From contig NZ_LT629772.1 in the NCBI RefSeq assembly GCF_900105385.1, positions 248,001-312,000 of the forward strand: 64,000 nucleotides of DNA, written 5' to 3'. The notes beneath the pieces were generated by a model, which worked only from the letters and a program-made list of their open reading frames with translations, did no database searches and was not told the origin of the DNA. Shown here piece after piece: positions 8,028 through 46,432 of the stretch. The translations under genes were made by a program, and so were the position numbers. The DNA comes from Microlunatus soli. Its GTDB lineage: Bacteria > Actinomycetota > Actinomycetes > Propionibacteriales > Propionibacteriaceae. Positions within the stretch are counted from its first letter, which is position 1, and each line of letters starts with the position of its first letter.

Positions 8028-8506
8028 GACGCTATTGGATCACCCGGGACCGACAGCTGGTGGCTCCGCCACGACGCGATGCCGATGTCGACGATGTCGG
8101 CACGGGATTCGGTGGGCACCCGATCCAGATCGATCCATGCGGCCCGGTCGGTGGTGCCGCCCACCTCGATCGTGCCGAGCTTCCCGTCGACCACTGACGC
8201 GGTGTACAGGATCCGGACCGACTTGTACGGCTTGCCGCCCGGATCGGCCGGCGAGCCGGCCTGGTCGGTGAACGAATTCGTCGTCAGGGGATCGCCGAGT
8301 CGGATCCGGTAGCCGGTCTCCTCCATCGCCTCGCGGACGATCGCCTGCTCGACCGACTCGTCGTACTCCACTCCTCCGCCGGGCAGCGACCAGCCCGGCC
8401 GGCCGTGTCCGTGCGGACCGCCGTTGTACCAACTGAGCAGGATCCGGTCGGCGTCGATGATCACCGCGTAGGCGGCCACCCTGGTGTGGAACTCGGTGAA
8501 GTGCAC
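8024..8506 (-). CDS. NUDIX hydrolase
   Basis: This NUDIX pyrophosphohydrolase has 160 residues and a clear Nudix box: GGGVEYDESVEQAIVREAME followed by ETGY, which supplies the metal-binding REUxEE glutamates. Such enzymes cleave nucleoside diphosphates linked to another group; the substrate cannot be read from the sequence. The start is taken as GTG 8506 (VHFTEFHTRVAAYAVI), where the fold's first strand begins. A longer frame reaches 8539 but adds only low-complexity residues. Its stop overlaps the adnA ATG, so it is co-transcribed with the break-repair genes. A nucleotide-pool role linked to repair is inference. Confidence 0.85.
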   Translation of the reverse strand: MHFTEFHTRVAAYAVIIDADRILLSWYNGGPHGHGRPGWSLPGGGVEYDESVEQAIVREAMEETGYRIRLGDPLTTNSFTDQAGSPADPGGKPYKSVRILYTASVVDGKLGTIEVGGTTDRAAWIDLDRVPTESRADIVDIGIASWRSHQLSVPGDPIAS

Positions 8507-8539
8507 CGGCCAGACGCTACTCCCGTGCCGGCAGAACAC

Positions 8540-8770
8540 TCAGCCGGTGTGGACGATCTTGGCCGGGGTCGCTCCGGTCCGCTGGTGGGCCAGCACCAGC
8601 CGCGCCGCGATACCGACGAACCCCACCACCGGGCGATCGTCGTCGTCGTGCACGACGAAGCCGCTGACCGGGTCGAAAACGAGTTCCCCGATCTTCTGCT
8701 CTGCACCGTCGTACAGGCCGTACCGGACGATCTCCGGTGTCTCGACTTCCTTGTGCGCAACCAGATACAC
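8540..8770 (-). CDS. Small conserved-looking hypothetical protein, start uncertain
   Basis: This 76-residue protein is predicted from GTG 8770. It is compact, acidic and lacks membrane segments (VYLVAHKEVETPEIVRYGLY ... FVVHDDDDRPVVGF). The reading frame continues upstream with protein-like sequence (DPAGSYDVGNITEHPEAIEA) to a TGA near 8852, but offers no ATG, GTG or TTG there. The real gene may therefore be longer with a disrupted start. It ends 33 bases before the NUDIX start on the same strand and may head that operon. I do not recognise the family. Confidence 0.45.
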   Translation of the reverse strand: MYLVAHKEVETPEIVRYGLYDGAEQKIGELVFDPVSGFVVHDDDDRPVVGFVGIAARLVLAHQRTGATPAKIVHTG

Positions 8771-8889
8771 GGCCTCGATCGCCTCAGGATGTTCGGTGAT
8801 GTTGCCGACATCGTAGGAGCCGGCAGGATCACATGATAAGCGCGTTACTGAAGCGGTTCACATGCAGCCCCCGAAGTCGCCGCGCCGGG

Positions 8890-9699
8890 TCAGAATCGAC
8901 GGTTGGCGATCACCGGGATCGTCTCCCGGATCGCCGGCAGCCGCTCGGTCTCGACGTCCACCACCAGCAGCTCCGGCTCCGCACCGGCGCCGATCACGGC
9001 CCCGCCGGCGGGATCGATCAGTGCGCTGTAGCCGACGCCGGTCGGCGCACTGCCCCGGGTCTTGATCCCCTGGGTCGCCGGGTCGGCCTGGCCGACCGCG
9101 GCAACGAAACAGGTGCTGTCCAGCGCACGGGCCTGGGTCAACAACTGCCACTGGGCCACCTTGCCCGGACCGGCGCCCCAGGATGCCGAGACGATGATCA
9201 ACTCCGCACCCTGATCGGCCAACCGGGTGTACAGCCCGGGGAACCGGACGTCGTAGCAGACCGTCAGGCCGACCTGTAGCCCGCCGATCGGGGTGACGAC
9301 CGGTTCGGTGCCCGGCACCACGGTGTCGGACTCGGCAAATCCGAAGGCGTCGAACAGATGGATCTTGCGATAGCTCACCAGCCCGTCCGGGCCAGTCACC
9401 ACCAGGGTGTTGCCGACCTTCGTCCGACCGTCCGGCGCACGCTGCTCCGACGGGGTGAACATGCCGGCCACCGCGGTGACACCGCTGGCGGCGGCGATCG
9501 CGGTCAGCCTGCTCACCCACGGGCCGTCCAACGGCTCGGCGACCGTGTCCAGCCGATTACCGAACGCGCACATCGTCGCCTCCGGGAAGATCACCAACTC
9601 CGCGCCGGCATCGGCTGCACGGACCACCTGGTCCTGCACGGCGTCCAGGTTGGCTCGCTTGTCGGCCGAGCTGATGATCTGCGCCAGCGCCAGTCGCAT
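8890..9699 (-). CDS. Carbon-nitrogen hydrolase (nitrilase superfamily, Nit-type)
   Basis: This cytoplasmic amidase of the nitrilase superfamily has 269 residues. The Glu-Lys-Cys catalytic triad is visible: E40 in IFPEAT, K112 in SYRKIHLFD and C148 in VCYDVRFP. The HLFD and CYDVRFP contexts resemble the Nit1/Nit2 and ω-amidase branch, whose members repair deaminated glutathione or hydrolyse α-keto amides. I would not fix a substrate. The ATG at 9699 shares a base with the serB stop (TGATG), so the two genes are translationally coupled. Confidence 0.88.
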   Translation of the reverse strand: MRLALAQIISSADKRANLDAVQDQVVRAADAGAELVIFPEATMCAFGNRLDTVAEPLDGPWVSRLTAIAAASGVTAVAGMFTPSEQRAPDGRTKVGNTLVVTGPDGLVSYRKIHLFDAFGFAESDTVVPGTEPVVTPIGGLQVGLTVCYDVRFPGLYTRLADQGAELIIVSASWGAGPGKVAQWQLLTQARALDSTCFVAAVGQADPATQGIKTRGSAPTGVGYSALIDPAGGAVIGAGAEPELLVVDVETERLPAIRETIPVIANRRF

Positions 9700-10904
9700 C
9701 AGACGTCTCCATGATCGACATCGGTGCCGCGCAGTCCGAGCATGAACAAGATCGCATCCAGGTACGGCACCGAGACCGTCACCTCGGCCTGCTCCCGGAC
9801 CGCCGGCTTGGCGTTGAACGCGATCCCCATCCCGGCCGCGGCGAGCATGTCCAGGTCGTTGGCGCCATCACCGATCGCCACTGTCTGGGACAGCGGAACC
9901 CCTTCTGCAGCAGCGATCTCGGCCAAAAGCTCCGCCTTACGGGCACGATCGACGACGGTGCCGAGGATCTCTCCGGTCAGCCGGTCGCCGGAGATCTCGA
10001 CAGTGTTTCCGTAGGCATGATCAAGATCGAGTTGATCTTGGAGCCAGTCGGTGAACAGAGTGAATCCACCACTGACGATGGCGACCGCGAAGCCGAGCCG
10101 TTTCAGCGTACGGACGAAGGTGCGGGCGCCCGGCGTGAGCCGGATCCGACCACGGACCCGGTCGATCGCGGACAGCTCGAGCCCCTTCAACAGCCGTACC
10201 CGTTCGCGCAGTGAGCCCTCGAAGTCCAGTTCGCCGCGCATCGCGCGTTCGGTGATCGCGACGACCTGTTCGGAGCAGCCCGCCTCCTCGGCCAGCAGGT
10301 CGATCATCTCGTCCCGGATCAACGTCGAGTCGACGTCCATCACCACCAAGCGCTTGGCCCGGCGTTCCAGCCCACCGGCCTGGACGGCGATGTCGATCCG
10401 GTGATCGCGAGCGATCTGCATCAGCCGGCGCCGCATCGTGTCGACATCGCCGGCGATCACCGACAGGTCGTAGGCAGTGACCGGTTCGGTGGCCAATCGG
10501 ACGATCCGGTCGATGGTGCCGTCGGTGTCGGCCACCGCCACCGACACCGCCGCCAGCGCATCGGGGCTGAGTGCCTCGCCCAGCACGGTGATCGCATGCC
10601 GGGGCAGCATCGAACGCTGCGAGGTCGCCTCGACGTGTTCGAAGTCGACCGTCAACTGCAAGGTGTGTCCCCAGTAGAGGATGTCGCGGATCAGGCTGGA
10701 GTCGGCCTCGGCGATCCGGACGAGGACGTCGAGGGTCAACCGCTCCCGGACGACGAGCTGCTCCATGTCGTCGATCTCGGCGCCGGCACCGGCGAGCAGG
10801 CCGAGCAGATCGCCGACCACCCGCGGTCGGTCCCGTCCGCTGACTCTGATCAGCAGCGGCTGACCGAACTGGTCGGCCGCCGGCTCCGCTTCACCCTGTG
10901 CCAC
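9699..10904 (-). CDS. serB: Phosphoserine phosphatase SerB with N-terminal ACT-like region
   Basis: This enzyme performs the last step of serine biosynthesis, phosphoserine to serine and phosphate. The HAD catalytic core begins with VVMDVDSTLIRDE (DxDxT nucleophile motif), followed by SGGFTLFTDWL (motif II Ser) and GDGANDLDMLAAAGMG (motif IV aspartates). About 190 N-terminal residues form two ACT-like regulatory repeats (LLIRVSGRDRPRVVGDLLG at the start), as in mycobacterial SerB2. GTG 10904 is preferred; a TTG lies three codons further upstream. The protein has 401 residues. It is followed directly by the nitrilase gene. Confidence 0.92.
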   Translation of the reverse strand: MAQGEAEPAADQFGQPLLIRVSGRDRPRVVGDLLGLLAGAGAEIDDMEQLVVRERLTLDVLVRIAEADSSLIRDILYWGHTLQLTVDFEHVEATSQRSMLPRHAITVLGEALSPDALAAVSVAVADTDGTIDRIVRLATEPVTAYDLSVIAGDVDTMRRRLMQIARDHRIDIAVQAGGLERRAKRLVVMDVDSTLIRDEMIDLLAEEAGCSEQVVAITERAMRGELDFEGSLRERVRLLKGLELSAIDRVRGRIRLTPGARTFVRTLKRLGFAVAIVSGGFTLFTDWLQDQLDLDHAYGNTVEISGDRLTGEILGTVVDRARKAELLAEIAAAEGVPLSQTVAIGDGANDLDMLAAAGMGIAFNAKPAVREQAEVTVSVPYLDAILFMLGLRGTDVDHGDV

Positions 10905-16824: not shown

Positions 16825-18072
16825 ATGCCGACTCCGTCGACGACACCGAGCACTGCAAGGCTCCGGACGCCGGTGAAGGTGCTGTTGATCACCGTGCTGG
16901 CAACAGTGATCGTGATCGGCGGCGCCATCGGGTGGACCTCCTGGACCCGACGACCGCAGGGCGAGCCGCAGGCAACGGAATTCGCTGGTGCCGAGATCGC
17001 TCCGCGGCTGTCGAACGCGACCGTCCTCGCTCTCGGCGAAGCCACCCACGGGAATCATGAGTTCCAGCAGCTGCGGCTGCAGTTGGTCGGCAAACTGCCG
17101 TCCTTCGGCGCCATCGTGTTGGAGGAGGACTACGGCAGCGTCGCGCGGGCCAACGCCTACCTGCAAGGCGGTCCGGGTACGGCCCAGGACGCGACACGAT
17201 CGTTCGGCTTCGTCCTCAACCACACCGAGGAAATGGCGCACCTGCTGGAGGGCATCCGCCGGATCAACGACCGGCGTACCCCGGATCGGCGGATCCGACT
17301 GGTCGGGATGGACGTCCAGCGGATCGACGCCAACAAACAACTTGCGCTGGACGGGATGCGCACCATCGATCCTGCCCTGGCCACCGAGATCGGCCGCAAG
17401 CTGCACGGATGGAACGACGTCACCACCGACCCCGGTGACCCGCGTCGGGTGGACGAAGCGCTCGACGTACTCGCCGACCGGCTGTCAACCAGCGACGACG
17501 TCGCGCGGGATGCCAGGAACGCGGCCACCGCATTGCAGCAGAATCGGCAGCTCGACCGGGCCGGCGACTACGCCGCCACCCGCGCCAGGATCATGGCGGA
17601 GAACCTACGCCGTACGGTGAGCGAGGAAGCCGCACGGGGAAATGATCACACCCTGCTGTTCGCCCACGACGGCCATCTGGACAAGACCTCCGCGGCGTAC
17701 GCTCACCCCGACCTGGGTGCGCTGGCAGCGCGCCGCTGGGGTGATCGTTATCGGGTGATCGGCACTGACCTGCATGAGTCCCGACTGCGAACGGGTGACC
17801 GGGAACGACGCTGGGAGGTCCGACTGACCAACCGCAGTCCGCTGCGCGGCATGTTCGCCGGCACCAGGATCGGATACCTCGACGTCGCGGCGGCAACGCC
17901 GGCCAATCGCCGGCTGCTGGACCGCCGGGTCCGGATGGCCAGCGCCGGTGAATCCTTCCACCAGTGGCAGGCCTGGGTGCCGTGGCTGAACTCGGTGTCG
18001 ATGATCCCGAGCCGAAGTTACGACGCGTTGATCATGGTCGACCGGGCGACGCCGGTCACTCCCCTGCGCTGA
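16825..18072 (+). CDS. Erythromycin-esterase-family protein, membrane anchored
   Basis: This 415-residue protein has an uncleaved N-terminal membrane helix (VLLITVLATVIVIGGAIGW) and a C-terminal erythromycin esterase (EreA/EreB-like) domain. Visible motifs are LALGEATHGNHEF, IVLEEDYGSVARANAYL, RLVGMDVQRID and FAHDGHLDK. These carry the His and Glu residues the family uses for hydrolysis. Many relatives are not macrolide esterases, so the substrate is open. Coupling to an ABC exporter and its sensor suggests an envelope or antibiotic-stress role. The gene ends 9 bases from the convergent lactonase gene. Confidence 0.75.
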   Translation: MPTPSTTPSTARLRTPVKVLLITVLATVIVIGGAIGWTSWTRRPQGEPQATEFAGAEIAPRLSNATVLALGEATHGNHEFQQLRLQLVGKLPSFGAIVLEEDYGSVARANAYLQGGPGTAQDATRSFGFVLNHTEEMAHLLEGIRRINDRRTPDRRIRLVGMDVQRIDANKQLALDGMRTIDPALATEIGRKLHGWNDVTTDPGDPRRVDEALDVLADRLSTSDDVARDARNAATALQQNRQLDRAGDYAATRARIMAENLRRTVSEEAARGNDHTLLFAHDGHLDKTSAAYAHPDLGALAARRWGDRYRVIGTDLHESRLRTGDRERRWEVRLTNRSPLRGMFAGTRIGYLDVAAATPANRRLLDRRVRMASAGESFHQWQAWVPWLNSVSMIPSRSYDALIMVDRATPVTPLR

Positions 18073-18081
18073 GCGGTGCGG

Positions 18082-19992
18082 TCAGCAGTCGAGGACGAGC
18101 CTGACGGTGCTCGCCGGTGGGACCGTGACCCGAACGCCGCGGGGCTCGGCCGCCAACGTGGCCTCCTCGCCGAGGCTCTGCGGTGCGCCGGTCGTGGTCG
18201 CCGAGACCTGCAGCACGGCCGCTCGGTCGCCGGGGTTGCCGATCAGCAGCTGCCGGCGGTCACCGGATCCGCCGGTCCCGAGTCGCTGGCACAGCACCCC
18301 GATCGCCGCAGCCGGCCCGTCGATGATCGTGATCGACGGCACCGGCGTGAGTGGGCCGGCGGTAGCGACCCAGTCGATCACGCGGCCGGCCGGGTGCGGC
18401 GGCGCACTCGGTGCGGCTCGCAGGCCCCGCGGTCCCCAGGCCTCGAACAGTGTCAGCGTGCTGACACCGGGCACCGCCAGTGCGGCGATACTGCTGACGG
18501 TCCAGGCCGCAACCCCCGCTGAGGTCTGCCGCGGGTCGGTGGCCTCCGGCACCTGCTGTGCACCGTATCCGTCGACGAGTCCGCCCCGAAGATGATCATT
18601 CGGGTCATGATCATCCGGGACGAACGGCGTGGTGGCGACCGCGTTGAACCGGGATCGGAGGGTGACCGGTCCGATGTGCACCGGACGTCCCCCGGCCAGC
18701 CGGACCGCCTGCTCGGCCACCGGGCGTTGCATCGGCAGCGACTCGATCACCTGGGCGCGGCTCAGGTCATGCATCTGCGGCGTGATGCTGAAGGTCAGCC
18801 CACCCCGGTGATCGGAGAACTGATCGATGGTGCGGTTGAGTTCGGTGAAATGCGCACGGGTACCGGCGACCACCTCGACGTCGGGCAGCACGGCAGCCAT
18901 CGTCCGCCGCAGCGCGGCCGTCAACGGCACTGTCGTCCGACTGCTGGCCCGGTCGTAGACGGCGATCCGGCAGATCGCGGTACCACGCAGGGCGTCCAGT
19001 ACCGCGACGACCTGGTCCGGGTCGGAGGCGATGATCCGGACGTCGAGATCGGCACCGTCGGCATCCCGACCGGCCCGGTACAGCACCGCCGGCCAGCGCT
19101 TCTCATCGGCCGGCAGCTCGACCATGATCGGCAACCGGAGCGCGGGCGATCCACCGGCGCCGGCGTCGTCGGGAGCCGTGCCGGCGCCGGTCTGCAATAT
19201 CGGCAGCGACTCCGCACTCGGCATGATCAACATCGGCTTCGGCCCCGACACCGCGGTCGCCGTTGATCGACAGCTCAGCGTGAGCGACTGCTCGATCAGG
19301 TCCCCGCGCCCGACCGACACCGGGAACGGTTCAGCCAGTGGTGTCGAGTAGGTCTTGTACGAGGCGTCGGTCCAGTTCCGCTGATCCTCCATCTCGAAGA
19401 CGTCACCGACCAGCCGCAACTCGGCAGCCAGACCGTCGGTCCGCCAGCGGTAGCCCGTGACGTCCAACGCCGGTTGATGGGCGGAGATGTCACTGGGGAA
19501 GGCGGTACTCTGCTCCGTCCCGTCCGGATGCAGGACCTCCAGATGACGGCCGGCGAGGCCAGGGGCATGCAGCACGATCAGCCCGATCCGGTTGCGCCGA
19601 AAATCACGCAGCACCCGGCCGCGGACAACGAACTCCAGCTCGGGCCCGAGTCGCAGGTCGGCGTCCCATTGGAGGACGGGCACTCCGTCCAGCAGGCTGC
19701 GTACGGCGAATCGGAGCCGGTCCGGATGCTCGTCACCGATGTCGAGGATCAGGTTCTCCGCGGTGCGCCAGTCATGATCACGGACGATGAATCGGATGCC
19801 GCGCAGCACCGGGTGGCCGCCGTGTCGGATGTCGGCGAGTTCGGCCCCGCGCAACGACAGCGTCCACCGCCCGGCGGTCACGATCCGGTCCGGCGTCTCA
19901 CCGTCGCCCCAGCTCGTACCTGCCCCGTCCACAGCCGGTCCCGCAGTCATGCCCACGACCCGGTCGCCGTCCTGATGATCATGGGCGCTCAC
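18082..19992 (-). CDS. apnL: Predicted D-apionate lactonase
   Basis: This 636-residue cytoplasmic protein has no signal peptide. The N-terminal region (LRGAELADIRHGGHPVLRGI, then FIVRDHDWRT) and overall length recall the D-apionate lactonase family, which hydrolyses D-apionolactone to D-apionate. I recognise this mainly from that opening pattern and from the neighbours: genes resembling apnO and oiaC lie in the facing operon. The GTG at 19992 overlaps the regulator stop as GTGA, so it is translated with the FadR-type regulator. It could act on another aldonolactone; no catalytic residues were assigned. Confidence 0.65.
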   Translation of the reverse strand: MSAHDHQDGDRVVGMTAGPAVDGAGTSWGDGETPDRIVTAGRWTLSLRGAELADIRHGGHPVLRGIRFIVRDHDWRTAENLILDIGDEHPDRLRFAVRSLLDGVPVLQWDADLRLGPELEFVVRGRVLRDFRRNRIGLIVLHAPGLAGRHLEVLHPDGTEQSTAFPSDISAHQPALDVTGYRWRTDGLAAELRLVGDVFEMEDQRNWTDASYKTYSTPLAEPFPVSVGRGDLIEQSLTLSCRSTATAVSGPKPMLIMPSAESLPILQTGAGTAPDDAGAGGSPALRLPIMVELPADEKRWPAVLYRAGRDADGADLDVRIIASDPDQVVAVLDALRGTAICRIAVYDRASSRTTVPLTAALRRTMAAVLPDVEVVAGTRAHFTELNRTIDQFSDHRGGLTFSITPQMHDLSRAQVIESLPMQRPVAEQAVRLAGGRPVHIGPVTLRSRFNAVATTPFVPDDHDPNDHLRGGLVDGYGAQQVPEATDPRQTSAGVAAWTVSSIAALAVPGVSTLTLFEAWGPRGLRAAPSAPPHPAGRVIDWVATAGPLTPVPSITIIDGPAAAIGVLCQRLGTGGSGDRRQLLIGNPGDRAAVLQVSATTTGAPQSLGEEATLAAEPRGVRVTVPPASTVRLVLDC

Positions 19993-20735
19993 TCCTGATG
20001 ATCGTGATCGGCCGACAGCACCCGCTCGCTGGCGGTCACCATGTGGGCTGCCATCCGTTCGGCGGCCCGCTGCGGATCATGGGCGGCGATCGCCTCGTAC
20101 ACCTCGGCGTGCTCGGCGTAGGCGTCGTCGGCCTGGGCTCGGGTGCTCAGGCCGCGCTCGGTCCAGACCTGCAACAGCGATCGGATCGTCTGCAACAGAT
20201 CGGCGAGCACCTCGTTGCCGGCAGCGTGGGCGATAGCAGTATGGAACCGGACGTCGGACTCGATGAACGCCTTGGGCCGATCCAGATTCCTCTGCATCCG
20301 GTCCAGATACTTCTTCAGATCGCGGACCTGGGCCTCGGTCGCGCGTTCCGCCGCCAGCCCGGTCGCCTGCCCTTCGAGCCCGGAGCGGATCTCCAGCAGT
20401 TCCTCGGTCCTCGAGGCAGCCAGCAGCAGCCCCCAGCTCAAGGTCCGCGGCAGCAACTCCGAGGTCCCACCGCGCAGATAGCTGCCCGAGCCGGGCCGGA
20501 CCTGCACCACGCCGAGGATCTCCAACGAGGCGATCGCCTCGCGGACCGCCGACCGTCCGACGCCGAGCCGCTCGGCCAGCGCGCGCTCCGGCGGCAGCCG
20601 CGATCCCGGCGCGAGATCGCCGGAGGTGAGCAACTGCAGCAGCTGGCGAGCGACCACGGCGGAGGGCGACCCGGCCGGCACCGCCTCGAGTTCGAGACGG
20701 ACCCCGGTCGGATCGTCGTCGCTGTAGGAGGGCAT
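19989..20735 (-). CDS. GntR-family transcriptional regulator (FadR subfamily)
   Basis: This 248-residue regulator has a winged helix-turn-helix near the N-terminus (SRLPPERALAERLGVGRSAV ... LEILGVVQVRPGSGSYL) and an all-helical FCD effector domain (RTEELLEIRSGLEGQATGLA, FHTAIAHAAGNEVLADLL). The FCD histidines and aspartate typically bind a metal and an organic acid. The start is set at ATG 20735; an in-frame ATG at 20777 would run into the promoter. It lies between the two arms of the sugar-acid cluster, next to a perfect palindrome, and very likely represses both. Confidence 0.9.
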   Translation of the reverse strand: MPSYSDDDPTGVRLELEAVPAGSPSAVVARQLLQLLTSGDLAPGSRLPPERALAERLGVGRSAVREAIASLEILGVVQVRPGSGSYLRGGTSELLPRTLSWGLLLAASRTEELLEIRSGLEGQATGLAAERATEAQVRDLKKYLDRMQRNLDRPKAFIESDVRFHTAIAHAAGNEVLADLLQTIRSLLQVWTERGLSTRAQADDAYAEHAEVYEAIAAHDPQRAAERMAAHMVTASERVLSADHDHQE

Positions 20736-20797
20736 GGGCCGAGCGTATCGAGCCGACGGCAGACCGGGTGGCGACACCCCGAATTCCGCAAATATTG

Positions 20798-20811
20798 GTC
20801 AACCGGTTGAC
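20798..20811. promoter_or_regulatory. Putative operator of the sugar-acid divergon
   Basis: The sequence GTCAACCGGTTGAC is a perfect 14-bp palindrome in the 163-base space between the FadR-type regulator and the MFS transporter. Its size and symmetry suit a GntR/FadR dimer. It lies upstream of both starts, so one bound dimer could control both transcripts. I did not see a second identical copy in the window. Confidence 0.65.
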
Positions 20812-20898
20812 AGATCGAGAGGAACTGGCGACGATGAGCGGACCGGCAGCCACGCGATGCGGCAGCGCCGGTTCGGTTGTCGATCGTCAGGAGTCACC

Positions 20899-22242
20899 GT
20901 GGACCATGCGCCCGAAGCGCGGAGCGCGATCCGCAAGATCACGATCCGGATCGTGCCGTTCGTGGCACTGATGTTCTTCATCAACTTCCTGGATCGGACC
21001 GCGATCTCCTTCGCCGCACCCGGCGGGATGGAAGACGATCTCGGCTTGTCGGCAGCGCAGTTCGGCCTGGCCTCCGGCGTCTTCTTCATCGGCTACATCC
21101 TGTTGGAGGTGCCGTCCAACCTCGCACTGCACCGCTTCGGCGCCCGCCGCTGGCTGGCCCGGATCATGATCACCTGGGGTGTGGTCTCGCTGATCTTCGT
21201 GTGGGTGCAGAACTACCCGCAGCTGGTCGGGCTGCGCTTCCTGCTCGGCGTCGCCGAGGCAGGCTTCTTCCCCGGCGCGATCCTGTTCCTGTCCAGCTGG
21301 GTGCCGGCCGCCTATCGCGGGCGCATCCTGGCGCTGTTCTATCTGGCGCAACCGTTGACCAGCGTGATCGGCGCCCCGCTGGCCGGGCTGTTGCTGCAAC
21401 AGCACGGCGCGTTCGGCCTCGCCGGTTGGCGCTTCATGTTCCTCGGCGTCTCGGTTCCGGCGATCGTGGTCGGCGTGATCTGCTGGTTCTACCTCAAGGA
21501 TCGACCGGCTGACGCCGGCTGGCTGACCGCTTCCGAGAAGGGCTGGCTGCAGCAGACGCTCGCCGAGGAGGATGCGGCCAAACCCCAAGCAGGCAAGGAG
21601 ACCGGCGGGTTGCGCGCGGCCTTCGGTTCCGGCCGGGTGTGGGCATTGTGCGGGGTCTACTTCGGCTTCATCTACGGTCTGTACGCTCTGTCCTTCTTCC
21701 TGCCGACGATCATCAGCGGCTTCTCCGAGCAGTACGGCATCACGATGACCGACCTGACCAAGGGCCTGATCACCGCCATCCCCTACGTCCCGGCCGCGAT
21801 CGCGCTGTGGCTGTGGACCCGGGACGCAACCCGGCGCGGCCTGCGGACCTGGCACATCGCCGTGCCCGCGGTGGTCGGCGGGATCAGTGTGCCGGTGGCG
21901 CTGTTCGCCGGATCACCGGCGGCGACGATCGCCGTGATCGCAGTCACCGCGATGGCGATCTTCGCCGCACTGCCCAACTTCTGGACGCTGCCGACCCGCT
22001 TCCTGTCCGGTGCCGGCGCGGCCGCCGGCGTGGCGCTGATCAACACCGTCGGCAATCTGGCCGGCTTCGCCGCGCCGTACGTCACCGGTGCCGTGCACGA
22101 CTGGACCGGCGGCTACCAGCTGCCGATGATCATCGTCGGGATCTTCATGCTGTTGTCGGCGGTGCTGATCGTCCTGCTGTCCCGCCGTGATCGGGTTCCC
22201 CGGATCGACCACGGCGCGGCTACGGATCGGGCGGCGGCATGA
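20899..22242 (+). CDS. MFS transporter, anion:cation symporter (ACS) type
   Basis: This 447-residue, 12-helix major facilitator has the ACS-family pattern: NFLDRTAISFAAPGGMEDDL, GYILLEVPSNLALHRFGARR and RFLLGVAEAGFFPGAI. Characterised members import organic acids and sugar acids (glucarate, phthalate, tartrate). The frame is open further upstream, but GTG 20899 with AGGAG at 20889-20893 is the convincing start. Its stop overlaps the next ATG (ATGA). In this cluster it is the likely importer of the aldonate substrate. Confidence 0.88.
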   Translation: MDHAPEARSAIRKITIRIVPFVALMFFINFLDRTAISFAAPGGMEDDLGLSAAQFGLASGVFFIGYILLEVPSNLALHRFGARRWLARIMITWGVVSLIFVWVQNYPQLVGLRFLLGVAEAGFFPGAILFLSSWVPAAYRGRILALFYLAQPLTSVIGAPLAGLLLQQHGAFGLAGWRFMFLGVSVPAIVVGVICWFYLKDRPADAGWLTASEKGWLQQTLAEEDAAKPQAGKETGGLRAAFGSGRVWALCGVYFGFIYGLYALSFFLPTIISGFSEQYGITMTDLTKGLITAIPYVPAAIALWLWTRDATRRGLRTWHIAVPAVVGGISVPVALFAGSPAATIAVIAVTAMAIFAALPNFWTLPTRFLSGAGAAAGVALINTVGNLAGFAAPYVTGAVHDWTGGYQLPMIIVGIFMLLSAVLIVLLSRRDRVPRIDHGAATDRAAA

Positions 22243-23039
22243 GCATCGGGACCGGGACGTACGCCTACTTCTGGCGGATGTCGGAGCGCGTCGCGTCGCC
22301 CTGGTCGTTGCAGGATGCGCTGCGCGACACGGCGGACCACGGTCTCGACCTCTTCCAGATCTGTGATCATCAGCCGCTGTCCGAAGCCGACGACGGTCGG
22401 CTCTCCGAGATCGCGGCGCTGGCCACCGATCTCGGGATCACGCTCGAGCTCGGCACCCGAGGGCTGGCCGAGGATCATCTGCTCCGCTATCTGCGGATCG
22501 CCGAACGGCTCGGCGCCCGACTGATCCGATCGATGTGGACCGCCGGCGACGACCGCCCGGGCGCGGTCGAGGCCGAGCGTCGGTTGCGGGCCGTGCTGCC
22601 CGCCTTCACCGACGCCGGCGTGACGCTCGCCCTGGAGACCTACGAACAGGTGTCCACCGTCGACCTGGTCGGACTGATCGAACGGATCGACTCCCCGCAG
22701 CTCGGTATCTGCCTGGACCCGGGCAACACGGTGGCCAATTTCGAGCAACCCGACGAGGTCACCCGACGCTGTGCGCCGTACGTGAAGAACTGGCACGTCA
22801 AGGATTTCGATTTCACCCGTTCACCGGGTTGGGTCGGCTTCTCCTACACCGGCGTGCCGATCGGCACCGGCCGACTGGACTACGACGGCATCCGCGCCGC
22901 GATCGAACCCGACCGCCGCGGCATCAACCAGATCATCGAATTCTGGCTGCCCTGGCAGGACAGCCCGCACGCCACCGTCGACACCGAAGCACGGTGGACC
23001 GCCGACACCATCGCCTATCTCAGGAGCAAACAAGCATGA
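22239..23039 (+). CDS. oiaC: Predicted 3-oxo-isoapionate decarboxylase (TIM-barrel, AP-endonuclease-2 family)
   Basis: This 266-residue sugar-phosphate isomerase/epimerase-type TIM barrel has likely metal ligands in LALETYEQ (Glu), CLDPGNTVANF (Asp), KNWHVKDF (His) and IIEFWLPW (Glu). In D-apionate clusters a protein of this family, OiaC, decarboxylates 3-oxo-isoapionate to L-erythrulose. The assignment rests on the neighbouring apnO- and apnL-like genes, because the fold alone fits many isomerases. ATGA overlaps at both ends place it firmly in the operon. Confidence 0.65.
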   Translation: MSIGTGTYAYFWRMSERVASPWSLQDALRDTADHGLDLFQICDHQPLSEADDGRLSEIAALATDLGITLELGTRGLAEDHLLRYLRIAERLGARLIRSMWTAGDDRPGAVEAERRLRAVLPAFTDAGVTLALETYEQVSTVDLVGLIERIDSPQLGICLDPGNTVANFEQPDEVTRRCAPYVKNWHVKDFDFTRSPGWVGFSYTGVPIGTGRLDYDGIRAAIEPDRRGINQIIEFWLPWQDSPHATVDTEARWTADTIAYLRSKQA

Positions 23040-23902
23040 CCGACACCGCAGCCCCGACCCTGACCGTCGCCGTGATCGGCGCCGGCGGCAAGATGGGCAC
23101 CCGCGTCTCCGACAATCTGGCCACAAGCGACTACAACGCCTTGTACAGCGAGAATTCCGCCGCCGGCCAGCAGGCGATCAAGGACCTCGGCCGCGAGGTC
23201 ACCCCGACCGATCAGGCCGTGCCACAGGCCGACGTGGTGATCCTCGCGGTCCCCGACACGGTGCTCGGCGTCGTGTCGGAGGCGGTGGTCCCGCAGCTCA
23301 AGCCCGGGGCGATCCTGCTCACCCTCGACCCGGCCGCCGCCTATGCCGGGCTGCTGGCGCAGCGCGACGACGTCCATTACGCCGTCGCGCATCCGTGTCA
23401 TCCGTCGGTCTTCTCCGAACGCACCACCCCCGAGGAATGGGCCGACACCTTCGGCGGGATCGCCGCCCCACAAGAGGTCGTGGCCGCCTTCGAGACCGAC
23501 GACGAGGATCTGCGCGCCCGGGCCGAAGCCGTGATCTCGACCATCTATGCACCCGTGATCGCGGTGCACTGGGTGACGGTCAAGCAACTGGCCGTGCTGG
23601 AGCCGACCCTGGTGGAGACCATCGCCTGCATGATCGGCGAATTCCTGCACGAGGCGCTCGAGGAGACCGTCAACACGGTCGGTGTCCCCCGCGAGGCCGC
23701 ACGCGCGATCCTCTATGGACACACCTGGATCGCGCTGACCAACGGCCTGCGTGGCTCCAACCCGTTCTCCGATGCCTGCCACATCGCGATGGGCTACGGC
23801 CGGGAGTCGATCATCAAGGAGGACTGGAAGAAGATCTTCGACGACTCCGAACTGGATGCGGTGATCGCCAAGATGCTCAAGATCGACGCGGTCCGGCGGT
23901 GA
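23036..23902 (+). CDS. apnO: Predicted D-apionate oxidoisomerase (6PGDH-like)
   Basis: This 288-residue NAD-dependent enzyme has an N-terminal Rossmann fold (VAVIGAGGKMGTRVSDNLA) and a helical C-terminal domain of the phosphogluconate-dehydrogenase-C type (YAVAHPCHPSVFSERTTPEE ... VKQLAVLEPTLVETIACMIG). Proteins with this pairing include ApnO, which oxidises and isomerises D-apionate to 3-oxo-isoapionate. The ATG overlaps the preceding stop (ATGA). Together with the lactonase and decarboxylase it completes a three-step route. The biochemical assignment is by family and context only. Confidence 0.68.
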   Translation: MTDTAAPTLTVAVIGAGGKMGTRVSDNLATSDYNALYSENSAAGQQAIKDLGREVTPTDQAVPQADVVILAVPDTVLGVVSEAVVPQLKPGAILLTLDPAAAYAGLLAQRDDVHYAVAHPCHPSVFSERTTPEEWADTFGGIAAPQEVVAAFETDDEDLRARAEAVISTIYAPVIAVHWVTVKQLAVLEPTLVETIACMIGEFLHEALEETVNTVGVPREAARAILYGHTWIALTNGLRGSNPFSDACHIAMGYGRESIIKEDWKKIFDDSELDAVIAKMLKIDAVRR

Positions 23903-23909
23903 ACCGACC

Positions 23910-24671
23910 ATGATCGACTCCCAGCGGTTGACCGACCGGACGGCGCTGGTCACCGGCGCCGGTTCGGGAATCGGCCGGGCCGTCGCAACGCGCTTCCTGG
24001 CTGAAGGCGCCCGGGTCGTCTTCGCCGACCGCGATCGTCGGGCCGCCGAAGCAGCCGCCGATGATCACGACCGCGGCCGGGCGTTGACCATGGACATCAG
24101 CATCGAGGACAGCGTGATCTCCGGCTTCGAGGAACTGATCAGCGACGGCTGGGCACCCGATGTCGTGGTGGCCAACGCCGGTGTGCAGCTCTTCGGCCGG
24201 GACGCTCCGATCGCCGATGCGGATCTGGAGACCTGGCAGCAGACCATCGACGTCAACCTGACCGGCACCTTCCTGACCCTGCGGCAGGCGGTCCGTACGA
24301 TGCTGGCGCAGGACGGCGGTTCGATCATCCTGACCGGCAGCCCGACCGGACTGAACGGCGAGGGCAAGGACTTCACCGCCTACAGCACCTCCAAGGCCGG
24401 CATCCACGGGCTGTGCCGGACGGTCGCGGCGGCCTATGCCGGCACCGGCATCCGGGTCAACACGGTCGTCCCCGGCTACACCGAAACGCCCTTGGTGACA
24501 ACCATCTCCGGCGATCCGACCGAGCGCGCCAGCATCGTGTCGCGGATCCCGCTGGGCCGTCCCGGGACGGCCGACGACGTGGTCGGGGTCATGGTCTATC
24601 TCGCCTCGGACGAGTCGTCGTTCGCGACCGGCTCGCTGTTCCGGGTCGACGGCGGGATGACGACGTTGTAG
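23910..24671 (+). CDS. Short-chain dehydrogenase/reductase in the sugar-acid operon
   Basis: This classical SDR has 253 residues: TGAGSGIG cofactor motif near residue 16, VVANAGVQ, catalytic Ser in LTGSPTG, YSTSK catalytic Tyr/Lys, and PGYTETP. It starts seven bases after the oxidoisomerase stop. The described D-apiose dehydrogenase is a GFO/IDH protein, and none is encoded nearby. This SDR could replace it (apiose to apionolactone), or could act on the tetrulose product. The sequence does not decide between them. Confidence 0.85.
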   Translation: MIDSQRLTDRTALVTGAGSGIGRAVATRFLAEGARVVFADRDRRAAEAAADDHDRGRALTMDISIEDSVISGFEELISDGWAPDVVVANAGVQLFGRDAPIADADLETWQQTIDVNLTGTFLTLRQAVRTMLAQDGGSIILTGSPTGLNGEGKDFTAYSTSKAGIHGLCRTVAAAYAGTGIRVNTVVPGYTETPLVTTISGDPTERASIVSRIPLGRPGTADDVVGVMVYLASDESSFATGSLFRVDGGMTTL

Positions 24672-24693: not shown

Positions 24694-25212
24694 TCAGGCC
24701 TTGCGGCCGAAGACATGCGACACCCACCAGCGGCCATGGCTGTCCTTGTGGGCGCCGAGACCGTAGTTGCGATACTCCTTGCGCAGGATGTTCTCCCGGT
24801 GATCCGGTGAAGCCATCCAGGCCCGGGTCACCGCCTTGCCGCTCCGGTAGCCGACCGCGATGTTCTCACCGGTGGAGCGCAGGCCGCACTGCGACAGGAT
24901 CGGACGCAGCCGCTGATGCTGCAGACTCTGCCGCTGGGCCATCCGCTTGGCCTGCGCCTCGGCGTAGCGATCGAGGCAGGCGCTCCAACGAAGCTTGACC
25001 AGACCGCGCGAGGTGCGTTCGGCATTGGTGTGCCGGGCCGCCGACTTCTCGTACTTGGCTCCGTGCGCGGCCTCGGCCGTCGCGACCGGGCCACCGATCA
25101 CCGGGAACAAGCCCAGCAGCACGATCGTTGCCGACAGCGCGATCAGCTTGCGCTGAATCCGGGAGCGTCGGCTCCTGCCGAGCGTGTTGATCCGTTCAGT
25201 GATCGCCGTCAT
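24694..25212 (-). CDS. Secreted CAP-domain (SCP/PR-1-like) protein
   Basis: This 172-residue protein has a basic N-terminus and hydrophobic segment (KLIALSATIVLLGLFPVIGG) ending in ATAEAA, a plausible signal peptide. A CAP domain follows: HTNAERTSRGLVKLRW, GENIAVGYRSGKAVTRAWMA, SPDHRENILRKEYRNYGLGA and WWVSHVFG. Bacterial CAP proteins are extracellular and of mostly unknown function. The ATG at 25212 has GGAGG nearby; the frame extends to 25290, but the extra part has no signal-like character. It is convergent with the SDR gene. Confidence 0.85.
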   Translation of the reverse strand: MTAITERINTLGRSRRSRIQRKLIALSATIVLLGLFPVIGGPVATAEAAHGAKYEKSAARHTNAERTSRGLVKLRWSACLDRYAEAQAKRMAQRQSLQHQRLRPILSQCGLRSTGENIAVGYRSGKAVTRAWMASPDHRENILRKEYRNYGLGAHKDSHGRWWVSHVFGRKA

Positions 25213-25335
25213 GGCCACCTCCACCAGAACCCGAACTGCACCGGAACCGCATCTGCTGTGTCGAAGCCAGCTCACCGGCGTCACGGACAACTGTTGTCCC
25301 CCGCCAGGTCCAGGTCAAGCATCGACGCGTCGTGG

Positions 25336-25343
25336 TAACGTTA
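25336..25343. promoter_or_regulatory. Possible LacI-type operator
   Basis: A perfect 8-bp palindrome, TAACGTTA, with the central CG typical of LacI-family sites lies 69 bases before the binding-protein start. A LacI regulator is encoded directly downstream of that gene. The site could also overlap a -10 element. The evidence is short and only suggestive. Confidence 0.4.
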
Positions 25344-25411
25344 TCCCGCCTTGCGGCCGGTGCTCGCTGACCGACGGGGCCACCGCTGCTCTTGGTCGAG
25401 GAGGACCAACC

Positions 25412-27355
25412 GTGTCCGAGCCACGCATCCGACGCACCAGCTCGTCGCAATCAGGGTCATCGCCATCCGAGTCGTTCCGAACAAAGGCATCACCATCCGG
25501 GCTGATCCGGGCGCTGGCAGCCTTCGTGATCGCACTGTCCCTCGTCCTGACCGGCTGCACCGCCGGAACCGCAGGGATGGGATCGGGAACCAATGATCCG
25601 GCCGGCACATCCGGCAGCGCCGGCGGTTCGGCTCCCTATCTCGCCTATTCCCCGTGCTGCAGTTGGGGTACGACCTGGTCGAACAACCCGTACAACGTCA
25701 ACGGTCTGAGCAACATCCTGAACAATTTCGTCCTGATGCCGCTGGCGATCCCGAAGTATCCGAGCCTGACCGAGTACGTGCCGCAGCTCGCCGAGAGTTG
25801 GCAGGCCCGCAACGGCAGCATCACGCTCAAGATCCGGCAGGCCGCGAAGTGGGAGGACGGCACCCCGGTCACCAGCAAGGACGTCTACGACACAGCGATC
25901 CTGGACGCCACCCGCGGCGACGCGTTCTGGAACGACATCACCAAGATCGACACGCCCGATCAGCACACGGTCGTCTTCACCCTGAAGAAGGGCCAGCCGG
26001 TCGCGCTGGCGCAGAGTGATCTGTTCGGCATGATCACCTACCCGTCCAGCGTGTACGGCAAGTTCGTCACCGATCAGCTGGAGTCCGACGTCGTCAGCTA
26101 TTGGACCGCGTACCAGAAGGACCCGGACAAGGCGTCGAAGATGCCGGAGTTCAAGCGGATGGGCAAGACCTTCAAGAAGGTCGCAAGCTACGAGGTCGAC
26201 AAGGTGATCGGCAACGGCCCGTTCAAGCTGAAGAACATCACCACCAAGGAAGCCAAGATGCCCAAGTCCGCCACCTTCTGGGCCGCGGACAAGATCAAGA
26301 TCGGCGGGCTGGACTACACCAACGGTGACACCACAGTGATCTATCCGCAGATGTTCAGCGGCCAGACCGACATGTCCAACGTCTACATGCCGCCGCCGAT
26401 CCTGAAGCGCTGGAAGAACACCGAGAACGCCCAACTCGCGCTGCCGTTGGCGTTCGGATTCGCGATGGGCTTCAACAACCACAAGTATCCGTTGAACATC
26501 AAGGAGGTCCGTCAGGCGCTGGCCTACGTCATCCCGCGGGAGCAGATCAGCAACGCCGCGTACGGCACCGAGGCCGGCGCCGGCGGCACCTGGAAGGAGG
26601 TCAATACCGGGATCTCGCCGTCGCTGGAGAAGCTCTACCTGCCGCAGGACAAGATCAACAAGTTGAACAAGTATCCGGTCGATCCGGCCAAGGCCACCCA
26701 GCTGCTGAAGTCGAAGGGATTCACCAAGAAGGGCGACACCTGGATCACACCCAAGGGCAAACCGTTCAAGCTCACCTTCCTGGTCAACTCGGCGACCTCC
26801 GACATCGTCACCTCCTTCAACTCCGCGGCCAAGGCGCTGACCGCGTTCGGGATCAAGGCCGATGTGAACGCCACCTCGGGTGCCCAGCAGGACGCCGATC
26901 AGCACAAGGGCGACTTCGACATCGGGATGTACTTCGTCGGTGGGAACAACCCGCTCGGCATGTACGCCGCGATGCTCGGCCCGGGCAACAACTTCAGCTC
27001 CGCGGGCAACTACGCCGACACCCGCGGGCTCGGCTTCGGTCCGACGATGAACGTCCCCGGCTTGGGCGAGGTGGACGTACCCAAGACGATCGACAAACAG
27101 ACCAGATCGGTCGCGCCCGGACCCGAGATGAACAAGCAGGTCTGGAACTGGGCGCAACTGGTCAACGACGAGGTCCCGTACATCTGGTACTCGACCAAGG
27201 TCTACCAGTTCCCCTACTCGACCAAGAACTTCACCAACTGGCCGCCCGTCGACAAGAACAACACCAGTCCGTTGTGGGACATCATCGGTGCCAACCTCAG
27301 CGGTGGTCTGTCGTTGGCCCTGCAGCAGGGCTACATCACACCCAAGGCGAAGTGA
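25412..27355 (+). CDS. ABC transporter substrate-binding lipoprotein, family 5 (peptide/nickel type)
   Basis: This 647-residue solute-binding protein has a basic N-terminus, a hydrophobic stretch and the lipobox LVLTGC near residue 50, so it is anchored outside the membrane. The family-5 fold shows in LAESWQARNGSITLKIRQAA, KWEDGTPVTSKDVYD and NIKEVRQALAYVIPREQI. Members bind oligopeptides or oligosaccharides. GTG 25412 follows GAGGAGG. No permease or ATPase gene is adjacent, so it works with distant components or the cluster is incomplete. Codon usage is Lys-rich compared with its neighbours, as is usual for these binders. Confidence 0.9.
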   Translation: MSEPRIRRTSSSQSGSSPSESFRTKASPSGLIRALAAFVIALSLVLTGCTAGTAGMGSGTNDPAGTSGSAGGSAPYLAYSPCCSWGTTWSNNPYNVNGLSNILNNFVLMPLAIPKYPSLTEYVPQLAESWQARNGSITLKIRQAAKWEDGTPVTSKDVYDTAILDATRGDAFWNDITKIDTPDQHTVVFTLKKGQPVALAQSDLFGMITYPSSVYGKFVTDQLESDVVSYWTAYQKDPDKASKMPEFKRMGKTFKKVASYEVDKVIGNGPFKLKNITTKEAKMPKSATFWAADKIKIGGLDYTNGDTTVIYPQMFSGQTDMSNVYMPPPILKRWKNTENAQLALPLAFGFAMGFNNHKYPLNIKEVRQALAYVIPREQISNAAYGTEAGAGGTWKEVNTGISPSLEKLYLPQDKINKLNKYPVDPAKATQLLKSKGFTKKGDTWITPKGKPFKLTFLVNSATSDIVTSFNSAAKALTAFGIKADVNATSGAQQDADQHKGDFDIGMYFVGGNNPLGMYAAMLGPGNNFSSAGNYADTRGLGFGPTMNVPGLGEVDVPKTIDKQTRSVAPGPEMNKQVWNWAQLVNDEVPYIWYSTKVYQFPYSTKNFTNWPPVDKNNTSPLWDIIGANLSGGLSLALQQGYITPKAK

Positions 27356-27373
27356 CGGCGCTCGGACTCGGCA

Positions 27374-28420
27374 TCAGACCCCGGCCGAGGCATCGATATC
27401 CCTGCCTCGGCCGACGAAGCTGAGGATGCGGGTCGGTAGTTCGACGGTCCGCGGCGGCTGGGTGGCGGTGCCCTCCAGCCGTTCGAGCATCATTCTGGCC
27501 GCGAGCCGGCCGAGCTCGCGGGCGTCGTGATCGATGATCGTGATCGGCAGCCCCAGCACGTCGGCCAACTCGAAGTTGTCGAAGCTGAGCAGGTGGATCG
27601 GGTCGGTCCTCGCACGCGCCGTCGATGACCGCAGCGCGCGGACCGCACCGATCGCGTTCTGGTTGTTGGCGCAGAACACCGCGGTCGGCGGGTTGCGGCG
27701 GCCGAGCAGGTCGAGCATCACCCGCTCGGCCGACTGCACATCGCTCTGGCCGGCGAACACCAGCGCCTGATCCAGCTCGATCCCGGCGTCCTCGTGCGCC
27801 ATCCGGAAACCGTCGAATCGGCGCAACCCGGTGAAGACCGAGGTAGCGGTGCCGAGGTAACCGATCCGCCGATGGCCGGCAGCCAGCAATGCGGCGGTCT
27901 GTTCGTAACTCGCGCCGATGTCATCGACCAGGACGGTGTCGGCTCGTGCCCCTTCGACCGCACGGGATGCCAGCACCAGCGGCGTACCACCCAGCGCCTG
28001 CGGCAGCAGATGGCGCCGGGCTCCGGCCGGGACGACGATCAGTCCTTCGACCTGACGGCCGATGAACTTGGAGATCAGCGTGCTCTCCCGGTCCTCGTCC
28101 TCGTTGGTACTGCCGATCAGCAGACCCCGACCGGAGGCACCGACGACCTCGTCGGCGCCGAGCAGCAGTTCGGCGTAATAGGGATTGGCGATGTTGGTGA
28201 TCGCGACCCCGATCAGCCCGGATCGTTGACCGGGCCGCAGACTGCGGGCCTGTTCGTTGCGCCGATAGCCGAGTTCGGCCACCGACGCGCGGACCCGCTC
28301 GGACAACTCAGGGCTGACGTTCTTCTGCCCGGACAGGACGCGTGACACGGTCATCGGGCTGACACCGGCATGCGCGGCGACTGTCAGGATCGTCGGCTGC
28401 CTGCCGTCCGCACCGGCCAC
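27374..28420 (-). CDS. LacI-family transcriptional regulator
   Basis: This 348-residue regulator has an N-terminal LacI helix-turn-helix (TVAAHAGVSPMTVSRVLSGQ) and hinge (YRRNEQARSL). A periplasmic-binding-protein-like sensor domain follows (IGVAITNIANPYYAELLLGA, VLVDDIGASYEQT, GHRRIGYLG, LLSFDNFELADVLGLPITII). The start is GTG 28420. It is convergent with the binding-protein gene and is the natural candidate to regulate it through the TAACGTTA site. Its own upstream region carries an array of palindromic repeats. Confidence 0.92.
   Translation of the reverse strand: MAGADGRQPTILTVAAHAGVSPMTVSRVLSGQKNVSPELSERVRASVAELGYRRNEQARSLRPGQRSGLIGVAITNIANPYYAELLLGADEVVGASGRGLLIGSTNEDEDRESTLISKFIGRQVEGLIVVPAGARRHLLPQALGGTPLVLASRAVEGARADTVLVDDIGASYEQTAALLAAGHRRIGYLGTATSVFTGLRRFDGFRMAHEDAGIELDQALVFAGQSDVQSAERVMLDLLGRRNPPTAVFCANNQNAIGAVRALRSSTARARTDPIHLLSFDNFELADVLGLPITIIDHDARELGRLAARMMLERLEGTATQPPRTVELPTRILSFVGRGRDIDASAGV
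27382..27413. terminator. Bidirectional hairpin between binding protein and LacI genes
   Basis: A perfect 11-bp inverted repeat (CGGCCGAGGCA and TGCCTCGGCCG, ten-base loop) begins 27 bases after the plus-strand stop. It lies within the last codons of the convergent LacI gene, so it could end transcription from both sides. No T-tract is obvious. Confidence 0.6.
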
Positions 28421-46399: not shown

Positions 46400-46432
46400 A
46401 TGCAACACCTTCCTCTGGATCAGGTGTTGCAT
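46400..46432 (-). promoter_or_regulatory. Hairpin over the transposase ribosome-binding region
   Basis: ATGCAACACC and GGTGTTGCAT form a perfect 10-bp stem directly in front of the transposase ATG. The purine-rich RBS is partly in the loop and partly in the stem. A hairpin here could limit translation of read-through transcripts, as described for several IS elements. Confidence 0.5.

Follow-up and report, generated by a model that had tools for sequence, protein, structure and literature searches.

A 64-kb stretch of the Microlunatus soli genome (hereafter the window, at 248-312 kb of a 6.73-Mb genome in one contig) carries six open reading frames (ORFs) between positions 18082 and 24671, arranged in two divergent arms. 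An earlier note on this DNA had read these genes as a regulon for D-apionate catabolism, and the comparisons described here point to a cluster for the breakdown of both D-apiose, an uncommon branched sugar of plants, and D-apionate. The six genes and the candidate operator between the arms are as follows (window coordinates).

18082-19992, minus strand: predicted ApnL-like D-apionolactone hydrolase of a divergent group, 636 amino acids (NF049900 match, shared residues, predicted structure)
19989-20735, minus strand: FCD-type GntR regulator (ORF open to 20777, likely ATG start at 20735; PF00392 and PF07729 above cut-off)
20798-20811, no strand: candidate operator GTCAACCGGTTGAC, inside GGTCAACCGGTTGACA, in the divergent promoter region (perfect palindrome, core kept in relatives)
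20899-22242, plus strand: major facilitator superfamily (MFS) transporter of the sugar-acid type (ORF listed from 20734, likely GTG start at 20899; PF07690)
22239-23039, plus strand: predicted OiaC-like 3-oxo-isoapionate decarboxylase, a xylose-isomerase-like triose-phosphate-isomerase (TIM) barrel (PF01261, homology)
23036-23902, plus strand: predicted ApnO-like D-apionate oxidoisomerase (PF16896, homology)
23910-24671, plus strand: classical short-chain dehydrogenase/reductase (SDR), predicted D-apiose 1-dehydrogenase in place of ApsD (PF13561/PF00106, synteny, operator)

Both arms are tightly packed. The regulator and ApnL-like genes of the minus arm overlap by GTGA (19989-19992), while in the plus arm ATGA overlaps join the MFS and OiaC-like genes (22239-22242) and the OiaC-like and ApnO-like genes (23036-23039), and 7 bases separate the ApnO-like gene from the SDR gene. 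The earlier note had described this architecture exactly to the base. The listed starts of the MFS and regulator genes are probably too long, because the sequence and the onset of homology (MFS residue 63 aligned to Erwinia residue 11) favor the GTG at 20899 and the ATG at 20735, and the region between the arms would therefore span 163 bp (20736-20898). In a hidden Markov model (HMM) scan of the window proteins, the Pfam cut-offs were passed for GntR and FCD, MFS_1, AP_endonuc_2, PGDH_C, and adh_short_C2. The grouping of these genes is beyond chance, since they are repeatedly found together in relatives.

The plus arm resembles an operon on the plasmids of Erwinia sp. E602 and Pantoea sp. At-9b, where the gene order is MFS, dihydroxyacetone-kinase-family, triose-phosphate-isomerase-family, TIM-barrel, and PGDH_C, with rpiB lying divergently alongside. 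The order MFS, OiaC, ApnO is shared with the window at 49-67% identity. The window MFS protein is 66-67% identical to the MFS transporters of these OiaC-ApnO operons, and its best NCBIfam relative is the D-galactonate transporter subfamily, under the cut-off. The OiaC-like protein (PF01261, 85.9 bits) is 51% identical to the Erwinia and 49% to the Pantoea homologue beside ApnO; its TIM-barrel gene likewise lies directly upstream of ApnO, and a PDB sequence search with it gave two weak matches. For the ApnO-like protein, PF16896 (PGDH_C) reached 197 bits (cut-off 25) and KARI_N, 2-Hacid_dh_C, and NAD_binding_2 were also above their cut-offs, so that it combines NAD-binding and PGDH_C domains; it is 64% identical to the Pantoea/Erwinia protein and 42% to that of Sinorhizobium meliloti. 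The ApnO-type and OiaC-type assignments of the earlier note are thus upheld by HMM, identity, and context evidence, the two names themselves coming from context and denoting predicted activities. The Erwinia/Pantoea operon differs from the window in that no ApnL or SDR is found among the annotated features of the stretches, the regulator is of a sugar-binding type instead of FCD/GntR, and the kinase and TIM-type isomerase lie inside the operon.

The names ApnO, OiaC, LerK, LerI, and DerI and the order of the reactions are taken to be those of Carter et al. 2018, in which a non-phosphorylated D-apionate route through ApnL, ApnO, and OiaC to L-erythrulose is reportedly described. That work is cited in passages of PMC6302742, PMC10103415, and PMC8139981.

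The ApnL-type assignment of the 636-residue protein is likewise upheld, for a divergent group in which distant homology and kept residues go with a score far below the curated equivalog cut-off. It matched the NCBIfam D-apionate lactonase model NF049900 at 177.6 bits (cut-off 750), and no family was matched in a Pfam scan. All 10 of the other actinobacterial ApnL proteins scanned also remained under the cut-off (166-213 bits), and S. meliloti ApnL, encoded in a cluster that also includes ApnO and a Gfo/Idh gene, passed it at 833.8 bits. The cut-off is strict, since it also excludes the Paroceanicella protein (622.7 bits) and that of Paracoccus TOH (672.3 bits), whose gene lies in a cluster containing ApnO and OiaX. 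The window protein is 30% identical to S. meliloti ApnL over 558 residues and 27-32% identical to the aligned non-actinobacterial members. An alignment of 45 sequences from several phyla, drawn from 71 ApnL frames found and with the window's own added, has 30 invariant columns, among them all nine residues of FEMEDQRNW (199-207). In an eight-sequence alignment including S. meliloti, Paroceanicella, and Paracoccus, eight of these nine are invariant, N206 being Q in Paracoccus. Because long-range homology and shared invariant residues accompany a score below the cut-off, the protein is, judging from its sequence, part of an ApnL-like sister group of the wider ApnL homologous family, outside the equivalog as curated. 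No structure was matched in a PDB sequence search with this protein. An AlphaFold model was obtained with a predicted local distance difference test (pLDDT) value of 86 and a predicted template modelling score (pTM) of 0.90; the predicted fold would combine a beta-rich domain with a barrel resembling glycoside hydrolase clan GH-A, which is unusual for a lactonase, and the conserved residues E384, N386, R387, H408, and D486 fall in the barrel half of this model.

To place the cluster among its relatives, genome contigs were scanned with the ApnL-like protein, and the best 80 of at least 580 confirmed stretches were taken, 69 actinobacterial and 11 not, going by their record titles. In the locus counts, SDR hits below 55% and GntR hits below 40% were ignored, and some loci were cut by contig ends. 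ApnO was present in 54 and OiaC in 53 of the 69 actinobacterial loci, and ApnO, OiaC, the kinase, and both isomerases occurred together in 44. In a draw not chosen on ApnL, 56 of 296 class genomes matched ApnO at E up to 0.001, 17 of them at 63% or more (the own genome and 16 others); OiaC lay beside ApnO in 11 of these 16, and 5 of the 16 also encode ApnL. At least three drawn genomes also stand behind loci of the 80-locus set, so that draws and loci overlap. Microbacteriaceae clusters (e.g., Microbacterium, Curtobacterium, and Plantibacter) share GntR, operator, MFS, OiaC, ApnO, SDR, and ApnL with the window; in many of them, unlike the window, a dihydroxyacetone kinase (DAK)-RpiB-TIM set lies inside the operon, and the usual place of ApnL is behind the SDR rather than behind the regulator.

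A homologue (at least 40% identity) of the regulator, which carries the GntR (PF00392) and FCD (PF07729) domains, was found in 46 of the 69 actinobacterial loci. The close spacing seen in the window, with no more than 1.5 kb between regulator and ApnL, was found in five of the 69 and in the same-genus genome G243 (L111), and placement of ApnL behind the regulator is therefore the rarer arrangement. The 14-base palindrome GTCAACCGGTTGAC at 20798-20811 occurs in one perfect copy in the whole genome, with four further sites at one mismatch, and a reversed control pattern gave one match in all. In the regulator upstream regions of the 46 relatives, it was perfect in 9 and present with at most two mismatches in 35 (perfect ones included). 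Its core, GGTCAACCGGTT, stands between the regulator and MFS genes in the window and upstream of the regulator in 40 of the 46 relatives, which form the aligned set, six regions being excluded where no core was present or where it fell too close to the edge (L013, for example). Across the 69 loci there are 84 copies of the core, 79 of them just upstream of cluster genes, while shuffled 12-mers gave a mean of 0.2 copies (at most 4) and none upstream. The relatives, mostly Microbacteriaceae, do not count as independent cases; the bases outside the core nonetheless vary. The word "regulon" in the earlier note thus gains a conserved operator, found between the arms and in relatives, and the FCD protein is predicted to bind the GGTCAACCGGTT site.

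The last gene of the plus arm is probably a replacement D-apiose 1-dehydrogenase, the substrate being a prediction. In 60 of the 69 actinobacterial loci, an SDR copy (at least 55% identity) and ApnL are no more than 1.5 kb apart. No Gfo/Idh-type ApsD of at least 30% was found in any of the 69, one at 26% lying 7.9 kb from ApnL; a search of 25 kb of the window also found no ApsD homologue, and the ApsD matches of the own genome (E up to 1e-20; 27% and 30%) are elsewhere, outside the cluster. Among the 11 non-actinobacterial loci, SDR was found in none and ApsD in two, plus a fragment in L079. Where the SDR-ApnL unit does not stand directly behind ApnO (25 units), the operator core is found upstream of it in 16. 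When genomes were drawn on the SDR, it turned up in 5 of 394 from the class and in 4 of 97 from the family (own counted in both), which makes six distinct others; cluster genes lie beside the SDR in all six, and ApnL is in the fetched stretch in five, about 2.5 kb from the SDR in two. No curated model names this SDR, and the PDB structures matched at E up to 1e-40 (4ni5 and 4wec) are both SDRs without a named substrate. The D-apiose dehydrogenase assignment is favored because a lactonase needs a lactone-forming aldose dehydrogenase, because the SDR tracks ApnL, moves with the detached pair, and often shares the operator, and because it occupies the place held in the Sinorhizobium and Paracoccus clusters by a Gfo/Idh dehydrogenase, which is taken for ApsD.

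Candidate genes for the use of L-erythrulose are also present in the genome. The single DAK homologue (54% identity) lies at about 6,686-6,689 kb (G000:C1), in one gene run with an RpiB-type isomerase (46%) and a TIM-type one (51%), so that counterparts of LerK, LerI, and DerI by family (a DAK kinase, a TIM-type and an RpiB-type isomerase) are all found. The RpiB-like protein of the run passed TIGR02133 (ribose-5-phosphate isomerase) at 201.6 bits (cut-off 168.2). To the route that the earlier note had drawn as far as L-erythrulose, the genome adds these assimilation-type genes, but they are about 310 kb from the window if the chromosome is circular. On the side of substrate supply, three PF13204 apiosidase-family genes are above the cut-off in the genome, and such genes were found in 2 of 14 control genomes. 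One of them, at 7913-9478 of the own-genome locus L135, has a Tat-type-looking N-terminus and overlaps a RuBisCO-like gene by 10 bases; the latter is nearest to OiaX (415 bits, cut-off 700), and in the same neighborhood (7913-10737) an SBP_bac_5 gene precedes the PF13204 gene and an RpiB-type gene and an FCD regulator follow. A second, phosphorylated apiose branch at this locus is possible.

Gene order, homology, synteny, operator conservation, and the presence of the downstream module were observed, and with them the window very likely holds a divergently transcribed, co-regulated cluster for D-apiose and D-apionate catabolism. The catalytic activities, the binding of the regulator to the operator, the inducer, and the SDR substrate are all predicted. 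In the proposed pathway, the SDR would oxidize D-apiose to D-apionolactone, which the ApnL-like enzyme would convert to D-apionate; D-apionate may also be imported directly by the MFS carrier. ApnO would then form 3-oxo-isoapionate, and OiaC would decarboxylate it to L-erythrulose, which would be turned into D-erythrose 4-phosphate by an enzyme of the dihydroxyacetone-kinase family and two isomerases whose genes lie outside the cluster. The FCD/GntR protein would act on the GGTCAACCGGTT operator between the arms and be relieved by a pathway metabolite.

Several observations weigh against this assignment. The ApnL-like protein falls short of the lactonase equivalog, as noted above, and no curated ApnO or OiaC model was matched in the NCBIfam scan. 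ApnO of 68-70% stands without an adjoining OiaC in 5 of the 16 drawn genomes. The SDR is absent from 9 of the 69 actinobacterial ApnL loci, the operator core is missing in 9 of the 25 detached SDR-ApnL units, and ApsD is present in only 2 of the 11 non-actinobacterial loci. In G332:C1 (L133), an SDR-GntR arm stands divergent from OiaC-ApnO with the operator between them, in a fetched stretch without ApnL. The remote kinase/isomerase run comes with a DeoR-type gene of its own and may be used for other sugars; no operator site with at most two mismatches was found in 18 kb around it, and its RpiB-like protein missed the DerI equivalog NF051858 (142.3 bits, cut-off 240). PF13204 genes were found in only 14 of the 32 genomes tested behind 32 of the 80 ApnL loci, 11 of 29 in the actinobacteria.

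It is possible, though rather unlikely, that D-apionate is degraded as proposed while the SDR has a different role, such as that of an L-erythrulose/tetritol oxidoreductase or of a dehydrogenase for some other aldose, and that the apiose dehydrogenase is encoded at another place. SDR substrates are not readable from sequence, the best NCBIfam match of this SDR is another dehydrogenase under the cut-off, G332 retains it with OiaC-ApnO, and a second dehydrogenase-like family, read as an extended SDR, occurs in 16 of the 80 ApnL loci and beside a lone ApnO in four drawn genomes. However, the SDR tracks ApnL and not ApnO, being present in the fetched ApnO stretch of 3 of 5 genomes with ApnL versus 0 of 11 without (Fisher p 0.018); SDR and ApnL can be paired at a distance from ApnO, with a separate operator copy; and the lactonase needs a partner dehydrogenase where ApsD of at least 30% is missing from all 69 stretches. 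A shift of the whole cluster to a different branched or ordinary sugar acid or lactone, with relatives of ApnL, ApnO, and OiaC that changed substrate in actinobacteria, is improbable. The low identity of ApnL to non-actinobacterial members and its sub-threshold score, in common with the ten other actinobacterial proteins, speak for such a shift, but MFS, OiaC, and ApnO recur with the kinase/isomerase module in both Proteobacteria and Actinobacteria, ApnO is 64% identical to the proteobacterial protein, the invariant residues of ApnL are kept, and apiosidase-family genes are in the genome. That these are ordinary neighbor genes without a common pathway can be dismissed almost entirely, as no observation speaks for it and it is contradicted by the recurrent synteny and the shared operator.

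The D-apiose/D-apionate cluster proposed here was further compared with known systems. It resembles the non-phosphorylated D-apionate route in that homologues of ApnL, ApnO, and OiaC stand in one cluster and L-erythrulose-kinase-type and two isomerase-type genes are in the genome, and it differs by an SDR in place of the Gfo/Idh dehydrogenase, a divergent ApnL, and a detached assimilation module. The Sinorhizobium and Paracoccus clusters share the lactonase and the oxidoisomerase, and in Paracoccus an FCD-type regulator annotated as NanR stands beside ApnL; they differ by a Gfo/Idh dehydrogenase and an ATP-binding cassette (ABC) transporter, and in Paracoccus by a kinase and OiaX branch. In four of the five drawn ApnO loci without OiaC (L109, L112, L113, and L114, genus label g41), an extended SDR and an SMP-30-like lactonase adjoin ApnO, both family labels being readings of the sequences; an NCBIfam scan of these proteins gave no match at E up to 1e-15. 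Of the 16 extended-SDR occurrences among the 80 ApnL loci, 15 are at 65% or more (the query's own locus counted; 12 in Microbacterium) and that of L083 is at 31%, while SMP-30-like genes are also present in L023, L061, and L110. The g41 loci suggest repeated replacement of the dehydrogenase step. A wider model is favored with less assurance than the cluster assignment: in actinobacterial D-apiose breakdown, a classical SDR dehydrogenase and a divergent lactonase would form a movable "apiose to D-apionate" unit, tied to an ApnO-OiaC-kinase unit by one FCD regulator through GGTCAACCGGTT. In this model the dehydrogenase would have been exchanged repeatedly, being a Gfo/Idh protein in proteobacteria, a classical SDR in the present cluster, and, in g41-type genomes, an extended SDR found next to ApnO together with an SMP-30-like lactonase.

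Other genes of the window lie around the cluster. An Erythromycin-esterase-domain protein (PF05139) at 16825-18072 is convergent with ApnL and has no visible tie to the cluster. Just downstream of the cluster, at 25184-28420, an SBP_bac_5 gene is convergent with a LacI-type regulator and could belong to a glycoside uptake system, and a transposase-type ORF with an rve integrase core lies at 45011-46432.

According to passages of PMC6302742 and PMC11747546, the rhamnogalacturonan II of plant cell walls contains the branched sugar D-apiose. In the excerpted text of PMC11747546, growth of Rhodobacteraceae strain LCG007 on D-apiose is reported, its cluster is described, and Enzyme Commission (EC) names are given for D-apionolactonase, D-apiose dehydrogenase, and D-apionate oxidoisomerase. 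Work by Carter on RuBisCO-like enzymes that act on 3-oxo-isoapionate 4-phosphate is cited in PMC6302742. The excerpts retrieved on apiose and apionate contained no actinobacterial cluster and, apart from the Rhodobacteraceae cluster, mentioned apiose with RuBisCO-like proteins. Searches on apiose dehydrogenase, on apiosidase with rhamnogalacturonan II and Microbacterium, and on apiose with Microbacteriaceae found nothing. Among the matches listed for the gene symbols, all were homonyms judging by title, and those listed for erythrulose enzymes mostly concerned Yarrowia. What is probably new here is an actinobacterial variant with a divergent lactonase, a probable SDR replacement of the dehydrogenase, and a conserved operator. 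Apiose use would go unreported in such genomes if annotation relied solely on these curated models, because the lactonase model misses the window ApnL and all ten others scanned and no model names the SDR. The operator and the SDR-ApnL unit give two testable predictions: that the SDR represents a new family of D-apiose dehydrogenases, and that regulator and operator act as a pair.

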